Origin: Comamonadaceae bacterium
Lineage (GTDB): Bacteria > Pseudomonadota > Gammaproteobacteria > Burkholderiales > Burkholderiaceae_C
Assembly (NCBI GenBank): GCA_947452785.1
Contig: CANGDZ010000009.1
Coordinates: 1 to 64,000 of the forward strand
Direction of reading: 5' to 3'
DNA: 64,000 bases
Of this stretch, positions 35,351 to 44,016 are shown in pieces. Each line of letters opens with the position of its first letter. Position 1 is the first letter of the stretch. The notes under the pieces were generated by a model that was not told the DNA's origin, did no database searches, and worked only from the letters and a program-made list of their open reading frames with translations. The position numbers and the translations under genes are program-made.

Positions 35351-38300
35351 ATGACCGATCTGTCTGCCGAATTCAAAGCCCTGGCCGAATACCGCCCCAC
35401 GAACAAGGTGCGCTTTGTCACCGCAGCCAGCCTGTTTGACGGGCACGATGCCGCCATCAACATCATGCGCCGCATCTTGCAGAGCATGGGCACCGAGGTG
35501 ATTCACTTGGGGCACAACCGCTCAGTGGACGAGGTGGTGACCGCTGCTTTGCAAGAAGACGCGCAAGGCATTGCCATCAGCTCCTATCAGGGCGGGCACA
35601 ACGAGTATTTCAGCTACATGGTGGATCTGCTCAAGGCACGGGGTGGCGAGCACATTCAGGTGTTTGGCGGCGGCGGTGGGGTGATCGTGCCTTCCGAAAT
35701 TCGCGCCTTGGCCGAAAAAGGGGTGCGAATCTTCAGCCCTGAAGACGGCCAAAAAATGGGCCTGGCCGGCATGATCGGCGAGATGGTCATGCGTTGCGAC
35801 CAAGACGTCAGCCCCTTGGCCCCGAAAGATGTGGCTGCGATCCAAGGCCATGGCGAAATGAACTGGCGCGCCTTGGCGCAACTCATCACCGCATTGGAAA
35901 ACGACAAGGCCGATGCCAGCGTGGTGGCCCATGTGCGCGAACAGGCTGCGCAAAAGAAAGTGCCCGTGCTGGGCATCACCGGCACCGGCGGCGCAGGCAA
36001 GTCCAGCCTAACCGACGAGTTGATTCGCCGCCTGCGCCTGGACCAGGACGACCGCTTGCGCGTGGCCGTGATCTCGATCGACCCTTCACGCCGCAAGAGC
36101 GGCGGCGCCCTGCTGGGTGACCGCATCCGCATGAATGCCATCAGCCCTTGGTCGCAAGGTCCACGCGTGTTCATGCGCTCGCTGGCCACGCGCGACTTTG
36201 GCTCTGAAATTTCTGCGGCCCTGCCCGACGTGATCGCTGCGTGCAAAGTGGCCGGCTTTGATTTGATCGTGGTCGAAACCTCTGGCATTGGCCAGGGAGA
36301 CGCCGCCATCGTGCCGCACGTGGACGTGCCCATGTATGTGATGACGCCCGAGTTTGGCGCCGCCAGTCAGCTCGAAAAAATCGACATGCTGGACTTTGCC
36401 GAGTTCGTGGCCATCAACAAGTTCGACCGCAAAGGCGCCTCCGACGCCTTGCGCGATGTGGCCAAGCAAGTGCAGCGCAACAAAGAAGCCTGGACCGTGC
36501 CCATGGAACAGATGCCGGTGTTCGGCACCATGGCGGCGCGCTTTAACGACGATGGCGTAACGGCGCTGTACCAGGCTCTCAAAGCCCGATTGACCTTGCT
36601 GGGCATGCCAACCGGTGAAGGGCGCTTGCCCGTGGTCAACGTGCGCCACAGCACGCACCAAAATCCGGTCGTGCCCTCTGCTCGCACCCGCTACTTGGCA
36701 GAGATCAGTGACACCGTGCGCGGCTACAAAAAGCGCGCCCGTGAACAAGCCCATCTGGCGCGCGAAATTCAACAACTTCGCGCCGCTGCCGTGATGCTCG
36801 AAGCCGGAAAATCGGGTCGCGCCCGCGCCGCCGAAGCCGCTTTGGACTTGGCCAAGGCCAGGGAAGAAACGCAGGATCCCAACGCCCGCAAGCTGCTGAC
36901 CCAATGGCCCGACATGCAAAAAGCCTACGCGGGCGACGAGTACGTGGTAAAGATTCGCGACAAGGAAATCCGCACCGCGCTGACCACCAAATCGCTCAGC
37001 GGCACCACTATTCGAAAAGTGGCGCTGCCGCAATATGAAGACCATGGTGAAGTGCTCAAGTGGCTGATGCTGGACAACGTGCCCGGCAGCTACCCCTATA
37101 CCGCTGGCACTTTTGCCTTCAAACGCGAGGGCGAAGACCCGACCCGCATGTTTGCCGGCGAAGGCGATCCCTTCCGCACGAACCGCCGCTTCAAACTGGT
37201 GAGCGAAGGCCTGCCGGCCAAGCGGCTGTCCACAGCCTTTGACTCGGTCACGCTGTACGGCAACGATCCGGATCGCCGCCCCGACATCTACGGCAAGATC
37301 GGCAACTCGGGCGTGAACGTGGCCACGCTGGACGACATGAAGGTGCTGTATTCGGGCTTTGACCTGTGCAACCCGACCACCTCGGTGTCCATGACCATCA
37401 ACGGTCCGGCGCCGTCCATCTTGGCCATGTTCATGAACACGGCCATCGACCAGAACATTGACAAATTCAAGGCTGAGAACGGCCGAGAGCCAACCGAGAC
37501 CGAAACCGCCAAGATCAAAGAATGGGTGCTGGCCAATGTACGCGGCACGGTGCAGGCCGACATTTTGAAAGAAGACCAAGGTCAGAACACCTGCATCTTC
37601 TCCACCGAGTTCTCGCTCAAAGTCATGGGCGACATCGCGCAGTACTTTGTGCACCATGACGTGCGCAACTTCTACTCGGTGTCGATCAGCGGTTATCACA
37701 TCGCCGAAGCGGGGGCAAACCCGATTTCGCAACTGGCCTTCACGCTCTCCAATGGCTTCACCTTCGTCGAAGCGTACTTGGCGCGCGGCATGCACATCGA
37801 CGACTTCGCACCGAACCTGAGCTTCTTCTTTTCCAACGGCATGGACCCAGAATACACGGTCATGGGCCGCGTGGCGCGCCGCATCTGGGCGGTGGCCATG
37901 AAAGAGAAATACGGCGCCAACGAGCGCAGCCAAAAACTCAAGTACCACATTCAAACTTCGGGCCGCTCGCTGCATGCGCAAGAAATTCAGTTCAACGACA
38001 TCCGCACCACGCTGCAAGCGCTGATTGCGATTTACGACAACTGCAACAGCCTGCACACCAACGCCTTTGACGAAGCCATTACCACGCCCACCGAAGACTC
38101 GGTGCGCCGCGCCATGGCGATCCAGATGATCATCAACCGCGAATGGGGTTTAGCCAAGAACGAAAACCCGAGTCAAGGCGCGTTCATCATCGACGAACTC
38201 ACCGAGTTACTGGAAGAAGCTGTGCTGGCCGAGTTTGAAAAAATTGCCGAACGCGGCGGCGTCTTGGGTGCCATGGAAACCGGCTACCAGCGCGGCAAGA

Positions 38301-38641
38301 TCCAAGACGAGTCCATGCACTACGAGATGCTCAAGCACACGGGCGAACTGCCCATCATTGGCGTCAACACCTTCCGTAACCCCAAGGGCGATCAAGTCAT
38401 GGAAACGCTGGAGTTGGCCCGCTCGACCGAGGAAGAAAAGCAGTCGCAACTCCAGCGTCTGCAAGACTTCCAAACTCAGCATGCCAACGCATCTCCCGCG
38501 ATGCTTAAGCGTTTGCAACAAGCCGTGATCGATAACGGCAATGTGTTTGAAGTGCTGATGGACGCGGTGCGCGTTTGCTCGCTGGGCCAGATCACCAACG
38601 CCTTGTTTGAAGTGGGTGGGCAGTACCGCAGAAATATGTGA
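35351..38641 (+). CDS. icmF: Fused isobutyryl-CoA mutase IcmF
   Basis: This 1096-residue adenosylcobalamin enzyme interconverts isobutyryl-CoA and n-butyryl-CoA. Its domains run in IcmF order. A B12-binding domain (about 18-150) has FDGHDAA, with His32 as the expected lower cobalt ligand, and a GGGGGV loop. A MeaB-like GTPase chaperone has a P-loop near 207-216 ([12 protein letters not shown]). A TIM-barrel mutase makes up the second half ([35 protein letters not shown]). The length matches the family. Next to a branched-chain amino-acid transporter and a LiuR-like site, a role in valine/leucine carbon flow or butyrate use is likely. Confidence 0.95.
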
Positions 38642-38668
38642 ATTTTATTTACTTAGCCATAATCATAT

Positions 38669-38702
38669 GCGTCATTAAGTTGACACAATGAGTCGTCAGA
38701 AT
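38669..38702 (+). promoter_or_regulatory. Candidate PhoB-dependent promoter
   Basis: GCGTCAT-TAAG-TTGACAC (38669-38686) fits the Pho-box plan of two 7-bp direct repeats with a 4-bp spacer, matching CTGTCAT-like consensus at 10 of 14 repeat positions. CAGAAT, a plausible -10 box, follows after 10 nt at 38697-38702, the spacing expected when PhoB replaces a -35 box. It precedes two alkaline phosphatase genes, which fits phosphate-starvation control. Confidence 0.55.
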
Positions 38703-38736
38703 TCTCTAGGTTCCCACTTATTAACCTGGAGAATTC

Positions 38737-40182
38737 ATGAAGCACTTGATGCTTGCTGGCCTTTTGGCGGCTGTTACTTTTACAGGGTGTTCTAGCAACA
38801 CCCCTGCACCTAAAAACGTCATCTTTTTCTTAGGTGATGGCATGGGCATGACCACCATGACAGCCGCGCGAATCTACGGCGTTGGCGAAGACGGCGAGCT
38901 GACGATGGACACATTGCCAGAAACCGCTTTCATCAAAACCTTCTCAAATGATGCCCAGGTCACCGACTCAGCCCCCTCCATGGCGGCTTATATGACCGGT
39001 GTGAAAATGAACAACGAAGTGGTGTCGATGTCACCGGACACCGTTGCCATCGCTCCAGGCAAGGATGCAACCACAGGCGTCTCCAACAGCATTAACAACT
39101 GTGTAAGCAGCAACGGCGCCCCTGTGCAAACCTTGTTGGAAATGGCCATCGCCAAAGGCATGGGCACTGGTGTAGTCTCTACTGCTCGGCTCACGCATGC
39201 CACACCGGCTGTCACTTATTCGCACATCTGTAACCGCAATGCAGAGTACGAGATCGCTCGCCAGGCTGTGCCCGGTGGCGCAGGCTACAACACGGCACTG
39301 GGCAATGGCGTAGACGTTTTGATGGGCGGTATCAGCCAGTATTGGGTGCCCTTCAATGCCACCGGCAGTGCGGCAGAGAAAAAAGGTCGGCCAGACGGTC
39401 GCAACCTGATCAATGAATTCAAAGCCAAAGGCTATACCTTTGTCTCTGACAAAGCCACCTTCGATGCGGCCCCTGTGAGCTCCGGCTCCAAGATCATCGG
39501 TTTGTTCGATCAGGCATTCACTCAAGGTCACATGTCTTATGACCTGGACCGGAACCCTGCCAGTGAACCCAGCCTGGCTGAGATGACCACCAAGTCCATG
39601 GACCTGCTGGCGAAAAAAGGCAAAGGCTATTTCCTGATGGTTGAAGGTGGTCGCATTGACCATGCCTTGCATGAAACCAACGCCAAGCGGGCATTGCACG
39701 ACACTGTGGCATTTGACAACGCCATCAAGGCGGCCATCAACAAAGCCAAAGAGACCGACACCAACCTGACCAACACCTTGATCGTGGTCACGGCGGACCA
39801 TGATCACACGCTGTTGATGCAAGGTTATTCCAAGATCACCGGCAAAACCACCACGGCTTCGGCTGGCATTTTGGGCTTGCTGCGCAGCTATGTCGACGGT
39901 GCTCTGAGTAAAGATGCCGACAACTCGCCTTACACCATCCTGGGTTTTGGCAATGGCCCGAACCGGGTTTCAGACCGCACCACCGTCGCTGCGCTGGATG
40001 ATGCGACCGTCAGCGCCAACGACTACCTGCAAGAGTCAGCTATCCGAACCGGCACAGGCGGTGAAACACATGGTGGCGCGGATGTCTTTCTGGGCGCCAT
40101 TGGCATGTCCGCTGAGCAATTCAAGGGCGTTCTTGACAACACGGCTGTTTTTGGTCTGGTTCGTCAAGCGCTGGGACTTTGA
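38737..40182 (+). CDS. Alkaline phosphatase, lipoprotein form
   Basis: This 481-residue PhoA-superfamily phosphatase begins MKHLMLAGLLAAVTFTGCSS, a lipoprotein signal with the modified Cys at position 18, so it should be membrane-tethered. Metal and catalytic parts are visible: FFLGDGMG (Asp ligand), Ser78 nucleophile in TDSAPSMAAYMTGVK, VEGGRIDHALH, VTADHDHT and GGETHGGADV. It releases phosphate from organic esters outside the cytoplasm. It is followed 21 bp later by a close paralog with a different N-terminus. Confidence 0.93.
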   Translation: MKHLMLAGLLAAVTFTGCSSNTPAPKNVIFFLGDGMGMTTMTAARIYGVGEDGELTMDTLPETAFIKTFSNDAQVTDSAPSMAAYMTGVKMNNEVVSMSPDTVAIAPGKDATTGVSNSINNCVSSNGAPVQTLLEMAIAKGMGTGVVSTARLTHATPAVTYSHICNRNAEYEIARQAVPGGAGYNTALGNGVDVLMGGISQYWVPFNATGSAAEKKGRPDGRNLINEFKAKGYTFVSDKATFDAAPVSSGSKIIGLFDQAFTQGHMSYDLDRNPASEPSLAEMTTKSMDLLAKKGKGYFLMVEGGRIDHALHETNAKRALHDTVAFDNAIKAAINKAKETDTNLTNTLIVVTADHDHTLLMQGYSKITGKTTTASAGILGLLRSYVDGALSKDADNSPYTILGFGNGPNRVSDRTTVAALDDATVSANDYLQESAIRTGTGGETHGGADVFLGAIGMSAEQFKGVLDNTAVFGLVRQALGL

Positions 40183-40203
40183 TCCAATGATCTGGAGAAC
40201 ATA

Positions 40204-41598
40204 ATGAAACGTATTTTAATTTCTGCTCTGATGTCTGGTTTTGCTGTTGCCTCTTGGGGTGCAGGCGAAGCCAAAAATGTGATCTTCTTCTTGGGCGATG
40301 GTATGGGGCCCGTCACCGTGACGGCTTCACGCATTTACCAATACGGTGAAGCTGGCCAACTGACCATGGACAAGCTGCCACGCACAGCGCGCATCAAGAC
40401 CTATTCAAAAGATGCGCAAACCACGGACTCGGCACCTTCAATGGCGGCTTACATGACCGGCGTAAAGATGAACAACGAAGTGGTCTCAATGTCTGCAGCG
40501 ACGATAGCCGTAGCACCAGGCAAAGACACTGCAACCGGCGTCAGCAACTCAGTCAACAATTGCCTGAGTTCGAATGGCGCATCTGTGCCCACATTGCTGG
40601 AACTGGCCATCGCCAATAAAAAAGCCACAGGCGTAGTCTCTACCGCCCGGTTAACCCATGCCACGCCAGCGGTGACCTATTCACACATCTGTAACCGCAA
40701 TGCCGAGTACGACATCTCACGCCAAGCTGTACCCGGCGGTGCAGGCTACAACGCGGCGTTGGGCAATGGCATTGACTTCTTTATGGGCGGCATCAGTCAA
40801 TACTGGGTGCCGTTTAACGCCACCGGTAGCGCAGCTGAGAAAAAGGGTCGCCCAGATGGTCGTAACCTGATTAACGAAATGAAATCCAAGGGTTATACCT
40901 TTGTCTCAGACAAAGCCACGTTTGATGCGGCAGCCACCACGACAGGGGTCAAAATTTTTGGTTTGTTTGATCAAGCTTTCAGCCAAGGCCACATGTCTTA
41001 TGAGTTGGACCGCAATGCCGCACTGGAACCTAGTCTGGCTGAAATGACCACCAAGGCCATTGATGTCTTGTCCAAAAACAACAGTGGTTATTTCTTGATG
41101 GTCGAAGGCGGCCGTATCGACCATGCATTGCACGGCACCAACGCCAAGCGGGCCTTGGTTGACACCATTGCCTTTGACAACGCCATCAAGGCCGCACTGG
41201 ACAAAGTGGATTTGAGCAACACGCTGGTAGTGGTGACGGCGGACCATGACCACACCATGGCGTTCAATGGCTACCCCAAAAAGGGTAACCCCATTTTGGA
41301 CATCGTTCGCGGCTACACAGACGGTCTGCCCGCCAAGGATGCCGACGGTAAAACCTTCACCACCCTGGTTTTTGGCCAAAGTCCAAACCGCCCCGCAGCT
41401 CGTGCAGATGTCGATTCGGCGACGGCCCTGGGCAACGACTATCTACAAGAAGGCACAGTCAAAGTGGCCAACGGTAACGAGTCCCACGGTGGTGGCGACG
41501 TTCGCCTGCACGCCACCGGCGCTGGCTCGTCCACCTTCAAGGGCACCATAGACAACACCAAGGTGTTCACACTCGTTAAAACCGCTTTTGGTTTTTAA
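40204..41598 (+). CDS. Alkaline phosphatase, periplasmic paralog
   Basis: This 464-residue protein is strongly similar to the preceding gene throughout (LGDGMGPVTVTASRIYQYGE, Ser76 in TDSAPSMAAYMTGVK, GGISQYWVPFNATGSAAEKK in common). It has a cleavable signal peptide (MKRILISALMSGFAVASWGAG) in place of the lipobox. It also lacks part of the loop before the last metal ligand that the first copy has. The pair looks like an old tandem duplication with divergence of cellular location. It is followed by a terminator at 41623-41651. Confidence 0.93.
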   Translation: MKRILISALMSGFAVASWGAGEAKNVIFFLGDGMGPVTVTASRIYQYGEAGQLTMDKLPRTARIKTYSKDAQTTDSAPSMAAYMTGVKMNNEVVSMSAATIAVAPGKDTATGVSNSVNNCLSSNGASVPTLLELAIANKKATGVVSTARLTHATPAVTYSHICNRNAEYDISRQAVPGGAGYNAALGNGIDFFMGGISQYWVPFNATGSAAEKKGRPDGRNLINEMKSKGYTFVSDKATFDAAATTTGVKIFGLFDQAFSQGHMSYELDRNAALEPSLAEMTTKAIDVLSKNNSGYFLMVEGGRIDHALHGTNAKRALVDTIAFDNAIKAALDKVDLSNTLVVVTADHDHTMAFNGYPKKGNPILDIVRGYTDGLPAKDADGKTFTTLVFGQSPNRPAARADVDSATALGNDYLQEGTVKVANGNESHGGGDVRLHATGAGSSTFKGTIDNTKVFTLVKTAFGF

Positions 41599-41622
41599 AC
41601 CACGGTTCTTGCCCATCACTCT

Positions 41623-41651
41623 AGCCGGTAAGCCTTGCTTACCGGCTTTTT
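41623..41651 (+). terminator. Rho-independent terminator after the alkaline phosphatases
   Basis: AGCCGGTAAG (41623-41632) and CTTACCGGCT (41638-41647) form a perfect 10-bp stem with a 5-nt loop and TTTTT. It ends only 7 nt before the ATG at 41658 of the next gene, so that gene is either read through from upstream or uses a promoter that overlaps this stem. Confidence 0.88.
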
Positions 41652-41657
41652 CAATGA

Positions 41658-42425
41658 ATGCACATGCGTCCTCAACGTTCACTTTGTCTAAGTATCGCCA
41701 CCCTGCTCCTGGTGACCACGGGTTTCGTGCACAGTGTCAGTGCCCTGGCGCAAACGCCATTGGCAGCTGCGGTTGCCAACAATCGCGTACTCCCAGCAAC
41801 CCCCGCCAAGGTTGACCTGGATGCCCTCATCCGGGTTGAATCCAAAACCATAGGCTCCGATGGCGTCACTCGCACCAGCCTGTATGAAGAAACCTTCATG
41901 CGCCGAGGCGAACAGATCTGGACGCAGCGCATACGCCCCAAACAAACCACGGCTCACAACCATGACAAAGAAGGACACGCGGGTCATAAGCATTTGGATC
42001 CTTTTGAAGGTGGTCGGCTGATCAGTCTAGAAGATGGGAAGCCGCAAATGCGCCTGATCAGTGCCAGCGAAAAGCGGGTGGTCAGCGTCCCGTCGGTAGA
42101 GTTTGGAAATCTGGGATTTGATGGTTCATGGGAAAGAGCTTATTACTTGGTCACTCAACTCGAATTCAAAAGCTTCAAACCCGCCACCCGCGTCAGCAAT
42201 GTATCGGATGCGAAGTGGTTTGAAAAAAAGGGCGAAATCAACGAATCCATTTTGTGGGACAACAACCGAAAGGTCCCATTGGTTATTGAGAGTACCAATC
42301 GACAGGGCAGTCAATGGCGCAGAATCACAGTGATTCCACGCAAAGAATTGACGGCCGTGGTGCCCTGGGGTCCACAACTGGTTAAAAACTTTGATCAAAT
42401 GCTGTATTCAGACTTCTTGGATTGA
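41658..42425 (+). CDS. Exported His-rich protein of unknown function
   Basis: This 255-residue protein belongs to no family I recognise. It opens with a signal peptide (MHMRPQRSLCLSIATLLLVTTGFVHSVSALAQ). A His-rich patch near residues 98-111 (AHNHDKEGHAGHKH) could bind a metal. The rest is a beta-rich, Trp-containing sequence with no repeats, ending in VPWGPQLVKNFDQMLYSDFLD. A second ATG at 41664 is an alternative start. It follows two metal-dependent alkaline phosphatases in the same direction but stands directly behind their terminator. A periplasmic metal-binding or accessory role is possible but unproven. Confidence 0.75.
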   Translation: MHMRPQRSLCLSIATLLLVTTGFVHSVSALAQTPLAAAVANNRVLPATPAKVDLDALIRVESKTIGSDGVTRTSLYEETFMRRGEQIWTQRIRPKQTTAHNHDKEGHAGHKHLDPFEGGRLISLEDGKPQMRLISASEKRVVSVPSVEFGNLGFDGSWERAYYLVTQLEFKSFKPATRVSNVSDAKWFEKKGEINESILWDNNRKVPLVIESTNRQGSQWRRITVIPRKELTAVVPWGPQLVKNFDQMLYSDFLD

Positions 42426-42507
42426 ACCCCAATACTGTGCGCGAATAGCCTGATGATGATCGGTTGTAGAGGCTTTGCCGCAAGCCTCGGAATGGCACAA
42501 TCCATCC

Positions 42508-44016
42508 ATGCAAAGACCCACCCCCTTCATCGCCCCCGAAGTTTTTGACGACGCCGACACCGCGCTAGAGCGGGTGCAGGCCATTTACGAACAAAGTCTG
42601 AAGCACCTGCGTGACGCCATGCGGCGTTATGTGGCGGGTGAGCACATGGTGGACAAAATTCGCGCCTGTTACCCCTTTGTGCGCTTGCAAACCACGACCG
42701 ACTGGGTACCGCCCCAAAATTTGGATGAAGAATGGCTGAGCTTTGGCTTTGTGGCCACCGCTGGGCGCTACGAAACCACCTTGACCCGGCCTGACCTGTT
42801 TGCCGTTTACCTGCGCCAGCAGTTTGCGTTGTTGTTGGCCAACCATGGCGTGGCGCTGGAGGTAGGGACCAGCCAGTTGCCCATGCCGGTGCACTTTTCA
42901 TTTGACGACAATGAACATATTGAAGGCGAACTAAGCCCCGAGCGCCGAGCCCAAATGCGCGAGGTGTTTGATCTGCCCGATCTCACCGCCATGGACGACG
43001 GCATTGCCAATGGCACTTACCAAGTCGCGCCGGGTCAGGCTGCGCCGCTGTCGCTGTTCACCGCGCCGCGCATCGACTATTCGCTGCACCGCCTGCGCCA
43101 TTACAGCGGCACCCACCCCGTGCATTTTCAGAACTATGTGCTGTTCACCAATTACCAGTTCTACATCGATGAGTTCATCGCCCTGGGCCGTACCGAGATG
43201 GCCAAAGCAGACAGCCCTTATGTGGCTTTTGTGGAGCCGGGCAATGTGGTGACCCGGCGTGTGGGTTTGAGCGCAGAGGCAGGCGACGCGGTGGGCACGC
43301 CACCGCCACGTCTGCCGCAGATGCCGGGCTACCACTTGGTGCGTGCGGACCGCTGCGGCATCACCATGGTCAACATTGGCGTGGGACCGGCAAACGCCAA
43401 AACCATCACCGACCACATCGCGGTGCTGCGCCCACACACCTGGCTGATGCTGGGCCACTGCGCGGGACTGCGCACCACGCAGCAACTGGGCGACTATGTG
43501 CTTGCTCACGCCTATGTGCGTGAAGACCATGTGCTGGACGAGGAACTGCCGCTGTGGGTGCCTATTCCCGCGCTGGCCGAGATTCAGGTGGCACTGGAAA
43601 GTGCCGTTTCCGAGGTCACAGGCTGCCAGGGACCGGAACTCAAACGCCTAATGCGCACCGGCACCGTGGCCAGCACCGACAACCGCAACTGGGAGTTGCT
43701 GCCGACCAGCCACGTGGCCAGCACGCCGCAGCAGCGCTTCAGTCAAAGCCGCGCTGTAGCGCTGGACATGGAAAGCGCGACGATTGCTGCCAATGGCTTT
43801 CGCTTTCGGGTGCCCTACGGCACGCTGTTGTGCGTGAGCGACAAGCCGCTGCACGGCGAGATCAAGCTGCCCGGCATGGCGAATCACTTTTACCGCGAAA
43901 GGGTGAGCCAGCATTTGCAGATCGGCATTCGCGCGCTGGAGAAGTTGCGCGCCGCAGGCCCCGCCCAATTGCACAGCCGCAAGCTGCGCAGCTTTGCCGA
44001 AGTGGCTTTCCAATAA
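42508..44016 (+). CDS. amn: AMP nucleosidase
   Basis: This 502-residue enzyme splits AMP into adenine and ribose 5-phosphate. It has the N-terminal AMP-nucleosidase domain (about 20-170, HLRDAMRRYVAGE, HFSFDDNEHIEG) and a C-terminal nucleoside-phosphorylase-like domain (TMVNIGVGPANAKTITDHIAVLRPHTWLMLGHCAGL, ALDMESATIAANGFRFRVPYGTLLCVSDKPLHGE). I use the ATG at 42508 (MQRPTPF). In E. coli amn is phosphate-regulated, which suits its place after alkaline phosphatases, though I see no Pho box directly before it. An inverted repeat at 42469-42488 precedes the start. Confidence 0.93.
   Translation: MQRPTPFIAPEVFDDADTALERVQAIYEQSLKHLRDAMRRYVAGEHMVDKIRACYPFVRLQTTTDWVPPQNLDEEWLSFGFVATAGRYETTLTRPDLFAVYLRQQFALLLANHGVALEVGTSQLPMPVHFSFDDNEHIEGELSPERRAQMREVFDLPDLTAMDDGIANGTYQVAPGQAAPLSLFTAPRIDYSLHRLRHYSGTHPVHFQNYVLFTNYQFYIDEFIALGRTEMAKADSPYVAFVEPGNVVTRRVGLSAEAGDAVGTPPPRLPQMPGYHLVRADRCGITMVNIGVGPANAKTITDHIAVLRPHTWLMLGHCAGLRTTQQLGDYVLAHAYVREDHVLDEELPLWVPIPALAEIQVALESAVSEVTGCQGPELKRLMRTGTVASTDNRNWELLPTSHVASTPQQRFSQSRAVALDMESATIAANGFRFRVPYGTLLCVSDKPLHGEIKLPGMANHFYRERVSQHLQIGIRALEKLRAAGPAQLHSRKLRSFAEVAFQ

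Follow-up and report, generated by a model that had tools for sequence, protein, structure and literature searches.

An unnamed family of exported histidine-patch proteins encoded beside paired PhoA-type alkaline phosphatases, a candidate metal-binding accessory

The window, by which we mean the whole 64,000-nucleotide stretch of DNA analysed, carries a cassette of three forward-strand genes. PHO1 (38737..40182) encodes a first alkaline phosphatase with the lipobox FTGC, PHO2 (40204..41598) a second with a plain Sec signal, and the third gene (41658..42425) an exported protein of 255 amino acids with a histidine patch, named FAM here and aligned with 31 homologues. Both upstream products match Pfam family PF00245 (E 2.4e-95 and 6.3e-99), bearing out an initial annotation that had placed the third gene after two metal-dependent phosphatases. 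Among zinc enzymes that work outside the cytoplasm, alkaline phosphatase is a classic, and it is key to phosphorus recycling. A weak Pho-box-like direct repeat, GCGTCAT-N4-TTGACAC, precedes PHO1 on the forward strand (38669..38686; shuffle p 0.23 for the window alone), and a terminator-like forward-strand hairpin with a T run lies between PHO2 and FAM (41623..41647), about 10 nt ahead of the FAM start codon. The gene behind FAM matches AMP nucleosidase families in Pfam. Directly upstream of the cassette is a large ORF of 1096 amino acids (35351-38641), which by eye we take to be an IcmF-type methylmalonyl-CoA-mutase fusion.

FAM begins with a Sec-type signal peptide (residues 1-31; 41658..41750, forward strand), read by eye, with cleavage between ALA and QT at residues 29-31. 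The window protein matched no family in Pfam and none in NCBIfam at E ≤ 1, and no PDB sequence matched the profile of the 32 FAM members at E ≤ 10. Scattered weak Pfam or NCBIfam matches of single members (UBact, hmgA and others) were dismissed, each family appearing in at most two of the 32. ZinT and ZnuA are periplasmic zinc proteins with histidine-rich stretches, a feature they have in common with FAM, but at E ≤ 1 FAM was placed neither with these nor with similar zinc- or metal-binding periplasmic proteins by Pfam or NCBIfam. The initial annotation was therefore right to report a signal peptide and no recognisable family, and the match to a known non-metal family that it named as grounds for dropping its metal proposal was looked for and not found. 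An orphan or spurious ORF is ruled out by the 31 homologues. A literature search for the family or the cassette found no paper describing either; the accessible portions of a paper on Cupriavidus metallidurans BS1 (PMC7019866) and of one on Ramlibacter phosphatases (PMC5768637) make no mention of the cassette, and the latter portion reports a Ramlibacter genome with no PhoA. By these comparisons FAM is an unnamed protein family, apparently undescribed so far.

The order PHO1-PHO2-FAM on one strand was found in 31 of the 32 loci inspected, the window included (one further locus, L055, was dropped as a duplicate of L002). At the remaining locus (L039) the contig begins inside PHO2, and at another (L058) PHO1 is present and truncated by the contig start. 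A search for FAM gave matches in 22 of 299 genomes of the window's family, 21 of which were kept, including the window's own; the match in G092 was dropped as spurious, at 28% over part of the query and with no PHO2-type enzyme in the genome. A PHO2-type enzyme at E ≤ 1e-90 occurs in 21 of the 299, and these are the same 21 genomes that hold FAM, the two draws of 299 being taken as identical as judged by genome handles. Co-occurrence with the phosphatases, proposed earlier as a check, thus holds at the level of both genome and gene order, and because of these two observations the role of an independent envelope protein, also entertained at the outset, is now unlikely. In a rough clustering of ORFs of at least 110 amino acids around 31 loci, the neighbours recurring in at least four were the phosphatases, antisense artefacts and one other, a generic ABC ATPase (seven loci, at varying distance). 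Such linkage would fit any accessory role, including secretion, anchoring, inhibition or lipid contact.

Among the 78 partner enzymes compared, one duplicate locus (L055) counted, none departs from the conserved residue at any of the eight metal-ligand positions or at the catalytic Ser and Arg (E. coli PhoA numbering). Two further positions are kept in 78/78 and 77/78, the position equivalent to 328 being Q in one PHO1.

The FAM patch, HNHDKEGHAGHKH, comprises residues 100-112 (41955..41993, forward strand) and was delimited on the 32-row alignment and by His count. It contains five His, at positions 100, 102, 107, 110 and 112, out of seven in the whole protein, and a 13-residue stretch with five His arose in 8 of 20,000 shuffles of FAM. 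The dense patch first noted is thus real, while the count given for it, six His within about 14 residues, has to be lowered to five in 13. Nine positions are invariant in the alignment (G69, R72, R82, W88, H110, H112, W237, D252 and D255), among them both histidines of the HxH core, H110 and H112, which are present in 32 of 32 sequences including that of the window; this conservation weighs more than the density of the patch. The segment upstream of H110 varies in length, and the loop holds three to eight His with the core pair counted. At the C-terminus, the motif YSDFLD (42405..42422, forward strand) contains the invariant D252 and D255 and a nearly invariant Y250. Because the stretch ahead of H110 varies, the conserved element, as read from the alignment, is the HxH core along with the C-terminal aspartates and not the whole patch; loss of conservation in the patch, which would have told against metal binding, was looked for and not seen at this core.

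Export together with conserved potential metal ligands, and a genetic link to a metalloenzyme, were sought as marks of a metallochaperone. FAM has the first, with its signal judged by eye and H110, H112, D252 and D255 invariant in 32/32, and it has the second in 31/32 loci, in 21/21 genomes and, in a distant branch described below, in 13 of 13 testable loci. Since FAM travels with zinc-type phosphatases and carries an unchanging His pair, it is probably a metal-binding helper of those enzymes. The reading we favour, at a probability of roughly 45%, is that FAM binds metal in the periplasm as a dedicated accessory of PhoA-type alkaline phosphatases, most likely as a zinc-loading or metal-guarding partner. 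Metal binding, the identity of the metal as zinc and the mechanism of delivery are what we infer from this pattern, and an invariant HxH in a loop could instead be structural. The earlier suggestion that the protein delivers or stores metal for the phosphatases emerges strengthened, though not proven, and is now testable and well linked to its enzymes.

More remote relatives bear on this reading. Searched against 369 genomes of the class, the 32-row FAM profile returned the window's own copy and distant relatives only, the latter in four other genomes and, as a further copy, on contig C3 of the window's genome (E 1.3e-7). There, a second, distant PhoA-type phosphatase is followed just downstream by a distant FAM relative ending ASHKHD (L067:7914-10352, reverse strand). 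A profile of this distant branch found 15 of the 369 genomes, and all 13 loci with enough contig have a PhoA-type phosphatase upstream in the same orientation. L081, L083 and L087 were left out as fragments or cut by contig ends. The upstream phosphatases are 31-41% identical to PHO1/PHO2, and at L092 a gap of about 0.6 kb separates the phosphatase from the FAM relative. Comparison of the FAM and distant-branch profiles by hhalign gave a probability of 98.3 (E 1.4e-14, 172 columns, residues 60-255), while four reversed or column-shuffled distant-profile decoys reached at most 0.5% against the window family. As judged by this profile match, the two branches are homologous along most of the mature protein. 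The distant-branch relative at L080/L091 (G746) has an apparent duplicated segment near its start, RHWYPWRLQD and QWYLWRQQD.

The internal His loop is absent from the distant branch. The counterpart of YSDFLD there is DYADxGD, past which the proteins extend to ends such as HHGH, HQH, HKHD, HLHSH and GHKH; across 14 proteins, the last 12 positions hold 44 His in 168 residues versus 89 in 3255 elsewhere. A distant relative on an Azotobacter chroococcum plasmid (L156, 5428-6591) has both an early GGHAHGHDH stretch and VHHH at its end. A His cluster that is kept on one scaffold while its position shifts argues for metal binding, and is the best argument for a metal function that the sequences offer. 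The same plasmid also provides a point against a helper dedicated to phosphatases: all that was detected upstream is the C-terminal part of a phosphatase, apparently a remnant, and the FAM relative persists beside it.

A partner of the FAM type does not accompany every PhoA. Of the 369 class genomes, 51 have a PF00245 match at E ≤ 1e-30 and 24 have one at E ≤ 1e-105; among these 24, 13 have an adjacent partner and 11 do not, as judged by profile and by the downstream DNA, with just 0.7-1.0 kb of downstream room at two of the eleven. At seven further loci with weaker PhoA matches (L168-L174) the profile detected no partner either. The idea that every PhoA needs such a partner was accordingly rejected, since 11 of the 24 strong-PhoA genomes do without one, and PhoA folding in general therefore does not depend on it. 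PhoA-type enzymes may have the partner but do not require it: where testable, the partner implies the phosphatase, and the converse does not hold.

Structure models of the window protein and one relative have mean pLDDT values of 46.3 and 52.6 and pTM values of 0.48 and 0.52. At this low confidence they agree with the beta-rich remainder initially described, and the structure prediction called for at that time offers a possible fold without settling it. The top Foldseek matches to these low-confidence models are LolA, RseB and their relatives (best E 1.2e-3 and 5.4e-4), with TM scores mostly between 0.2 and 0.4, and VIA-align gave best Z scores of 8.4 (107 aligned, rmsd 3.0) and 7.7 (133 aligned, rmsd 4.0), a level near 8 that is common for models that have no clear relatives. 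Among the matches listed by Foldseek and the best 50 listed by VIA-align, LolA, LolB, RseB/MucB, VioE, LppX/LprG and ependymin predominate; porins, ushers and ApoB also appear in the VIA-align list of the second model. A LolA/RseB-like half-barrel, in that group a curved antiparallel beta-sheet with a helical lid, may thus be the fold of FAM and is treated as a lead only, because Z scores of this size are common where true relatives are lacking. By hhalign, the FAM profile matched LolA, RseB and LolA_like at no more than 1% probability, in a comparison that lacks power since its positive control, LolA against RseB, also failed. The Pfam families LolA, MucB_RseB and LolA_like gave no match for the window protein and are absent among the families listed for the 32 members. 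Like the LolA/LolB/RseB (MucB)/LppX/VioE/ependymin group, FAM would be a beta-rich half-barrel according to the low-confidence models; unlike that group, with which the underpowered hhalign comparison and sequence searches detected no similarity, it has an invariant HxH, a C-terminal DxxD and a link to PhoA. That the HxH and DxxD motifs lie close together in space would be a guess, because the models are poor.

The fold lead also opens the way to a different function, that of a dedicated folding, sorting or anchoring chaperone of the LolA/RseB type, which might handle the lipoprotein PHO1 or keep the phosphatases competent for type II secretion, with the histidines tuning surface charge or partner binding. 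Both low-confidence models match mainly LolA/LolB/RseB-type folds, and a strict automatic pattern finds a lipobox in PHO1 at 24 of 29 readable loci (PHO2, 3 of 31), with four more (L027, L032, L034 and L036) lipobox-like by eye. A type II system of C. metallidurans is also reported to secrete alkaline phosphatase (PMC6357080, in excerpt). Against such a chaperone, the distant phosphatase in the window's genome has no lipobox and none stands out in the neighbouring phosphatases of the distant branch, whose N-terminal stretches are mostly cut before the start codon. The failed-control profile comparison with LolA, RseB and LolA_like lends it nothing, and it leaves unexplained both the invariant HxH and the reappearance of His clusters at the C-terminus. 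We consider it unlikely, and keep to the metal-binding accessory as our preferred reading. A more specific form of that reading, held tentatively and with more doubt than belief, is a new family of periplasmic zinc-loading chaperones for PhoA-type phosphatases, in which a LolA-like half-barrel would have had its His cluster moved among at least three places (internal loop, C-terminal tail and early loop) while the enzyme link and the C-terminal DxxD were kept.

Upstream sites were scored against the Pho-box consensus. In a first, strict-halves scoring of both strands, 13 of 44 stretches, a set including those of the window's two phosphatases, scored at least 11, versus 38 of 1760 shuffles. After this first pass the scoring was loosened to accept either C or T as the last base and restricted to the forward strand. 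Of 28 cassette loci, the window apart and with L039, L046, L055 and L058 excluded, 24 then had a Pho-box-like site upstream of PHO1 at shuffle p ≤ 0.05. Sites reaching 12 of 14 matches number 13 on the forward strand versus 1 on the reverse. Only 4 of 14 distant-branch upstream regions have a site at p ≤ 0.05. These motifs hint that the cassette may be phosphate-regulated.

Of the 22 PHO2-FAM gaps that span 25 nt or more, 11, among them that of the window, contain a terminator-like hairpin with a T run, versus 3 of 1100 shuffles; the 11 include close relatives, and the gap lengths depend on start codons chosen by eye in the relatives. In a general terminator scan of 38500-42700, the number of terminator-like sites (6) is close to that in shuffles (mean 6.1), and the site ahead of FAM has the longest stem, with 11 pairs. 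The presence of a hairpin in 11 of these 22 gaps points to few FAM copies per enzyme, perhaps through fewer FAM than phosphatase transcripts, and a recycled helper fits low copy number better than a bulk metal store does. FAM as a store or buffer of metal, or as a guard against metal-phosphate precipitation around the phosphatases, and not as a deliverer, is improbable on this account. The His-rich loops with up to 8 His would suit it, as would two Cupriavidus plasmid copies near czc and MgtC-like genes or near mgtA and an MgtC-like gene, but no metal genes recur as neighbours across 31 loci, and the invariant core is a short HxH and no long repeat.

Helpers comparable to the metal-binding accessory proposed here have been described. 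CueP is required for metallation of SodCII (PMC4192464, in excerpt); as proposed for FAM, it is small and periplasmic and assists a metalloenzyme outside the cytoplasm in gaining its metal, the likeness being one of role, with sequences uncompared, and FAM differing in its PhoA-type client and in a metal that is likely zinc and not copper. The metallothionein BmtA has been suggested to supply zinc to the alkaline phosphatase of Synechococcus (PMC9337993, in excerpt), and is thus, like FAM as proposed, a metal-binding protein serving alkaline phosphatase under phosphate scarcity, whereas FAM is exported and encoded in fixed linkage with its enzymes. Beyond this suggestion for BmtA, the passages retrieved in a literature search named no dedicated metal partner of PhoA. 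The excerpted account of ElpS, a surface lipoprotein of Caulobacter crescentus encoded beside a type II secretion cluster, describes a phosphate-starvation protein that gives more alkaline phosphatase activity when overproduced and is not itself a phosphatase (PMC2996285). Since ElpS raises activity without being a phosphatase, accessory modulators may exist, and it resembles the proposed FAM as a phosphate-starvation accessory tied to higher alkaline phosphatase activity, again with sequences uncompared. It differs in lying at the surface of a host that, in the same excerpt, lacks a phoA homologue, while the client of FAM is PhoA-type. ElpS, together with RseB and MucB among the better matches of the low-confidence models, would also be in keeping with FAM as a regulator or inhibitor of the phosphatases, for instance an RseB-like sensor or an on/off partner answering metal or phosphate; across 31 loci, however, the cassette has no recurrent neighbour with a sensor or signalling role, and we hold such a function of FAM to be very improbable.

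The Sec route exports proteins unfolded and metal-free. If FAM is a metal-binding accessory, phosphate scarcity would switch the cassette on, and PHO1 and PHO2 would reach the periplasm in this unfolded, metal-free state. FAM, perhaps as a LolA/RseB-like half-barrel, would hold Zn2+ or another divalent metal through the invariant HxH, which the invariant C-terminal D252 and D255 might join, with its variable His-rich stretch as a collecting arm. It would then hand metal to the phosphatases or keep their metal sites correctly filled, a few FAM molecules per enzyme acting as recycled helpers. Were this true, it would bear on how extracytoplasmic zinc-type phosphatases obtain their metal, and an unnamed family would be acting as a known type of helper with an unusually shifting His cluster. 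Should FAM load or guard zinc, assisted delivery of zinc in the periplasm could be tested simply by co-expression, and FAM might serve as a helper for phosphatases used in metal precipitation.

The FAM family is patchily distributed. It was found in 17 of 141 genera, in 8 of 90 genomes of a same-genus sample (the window's own included) and in six plasmid-collection records, from Cupriavidus (four), Burkholderia (one) and Aeromonas (one). A scan of genome contigs gave one relative, viral contigs scanned with the FAM profile gave none, and phage records gave no match. Because this distribution is patchy and sometimes plasmid-borne, the PHO1-PHO2-FAM cassette probably moves between lineages. An artefact of regional synteny was rejected as the source of the linkage, as neighbours other than the phosphatases vary and the family occurs in these 17 genera and on plasmids. 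In C. metallidurans, an alkaline phosphatase is described on a plasmid that also carries part of a czc cluster, with no partner named in the excerpt (PMC6357080). On a Cupriavidus pauculus plasmid (L024, 4913-16588) the cassette is close to MgtC-like and czc cation-efflux genes, and on C. metallidurans BS1 plasmid p1 (L026, 4929-14525) it is close to a carbohydrate porin gene, mgtA and an MgtC-like gene.
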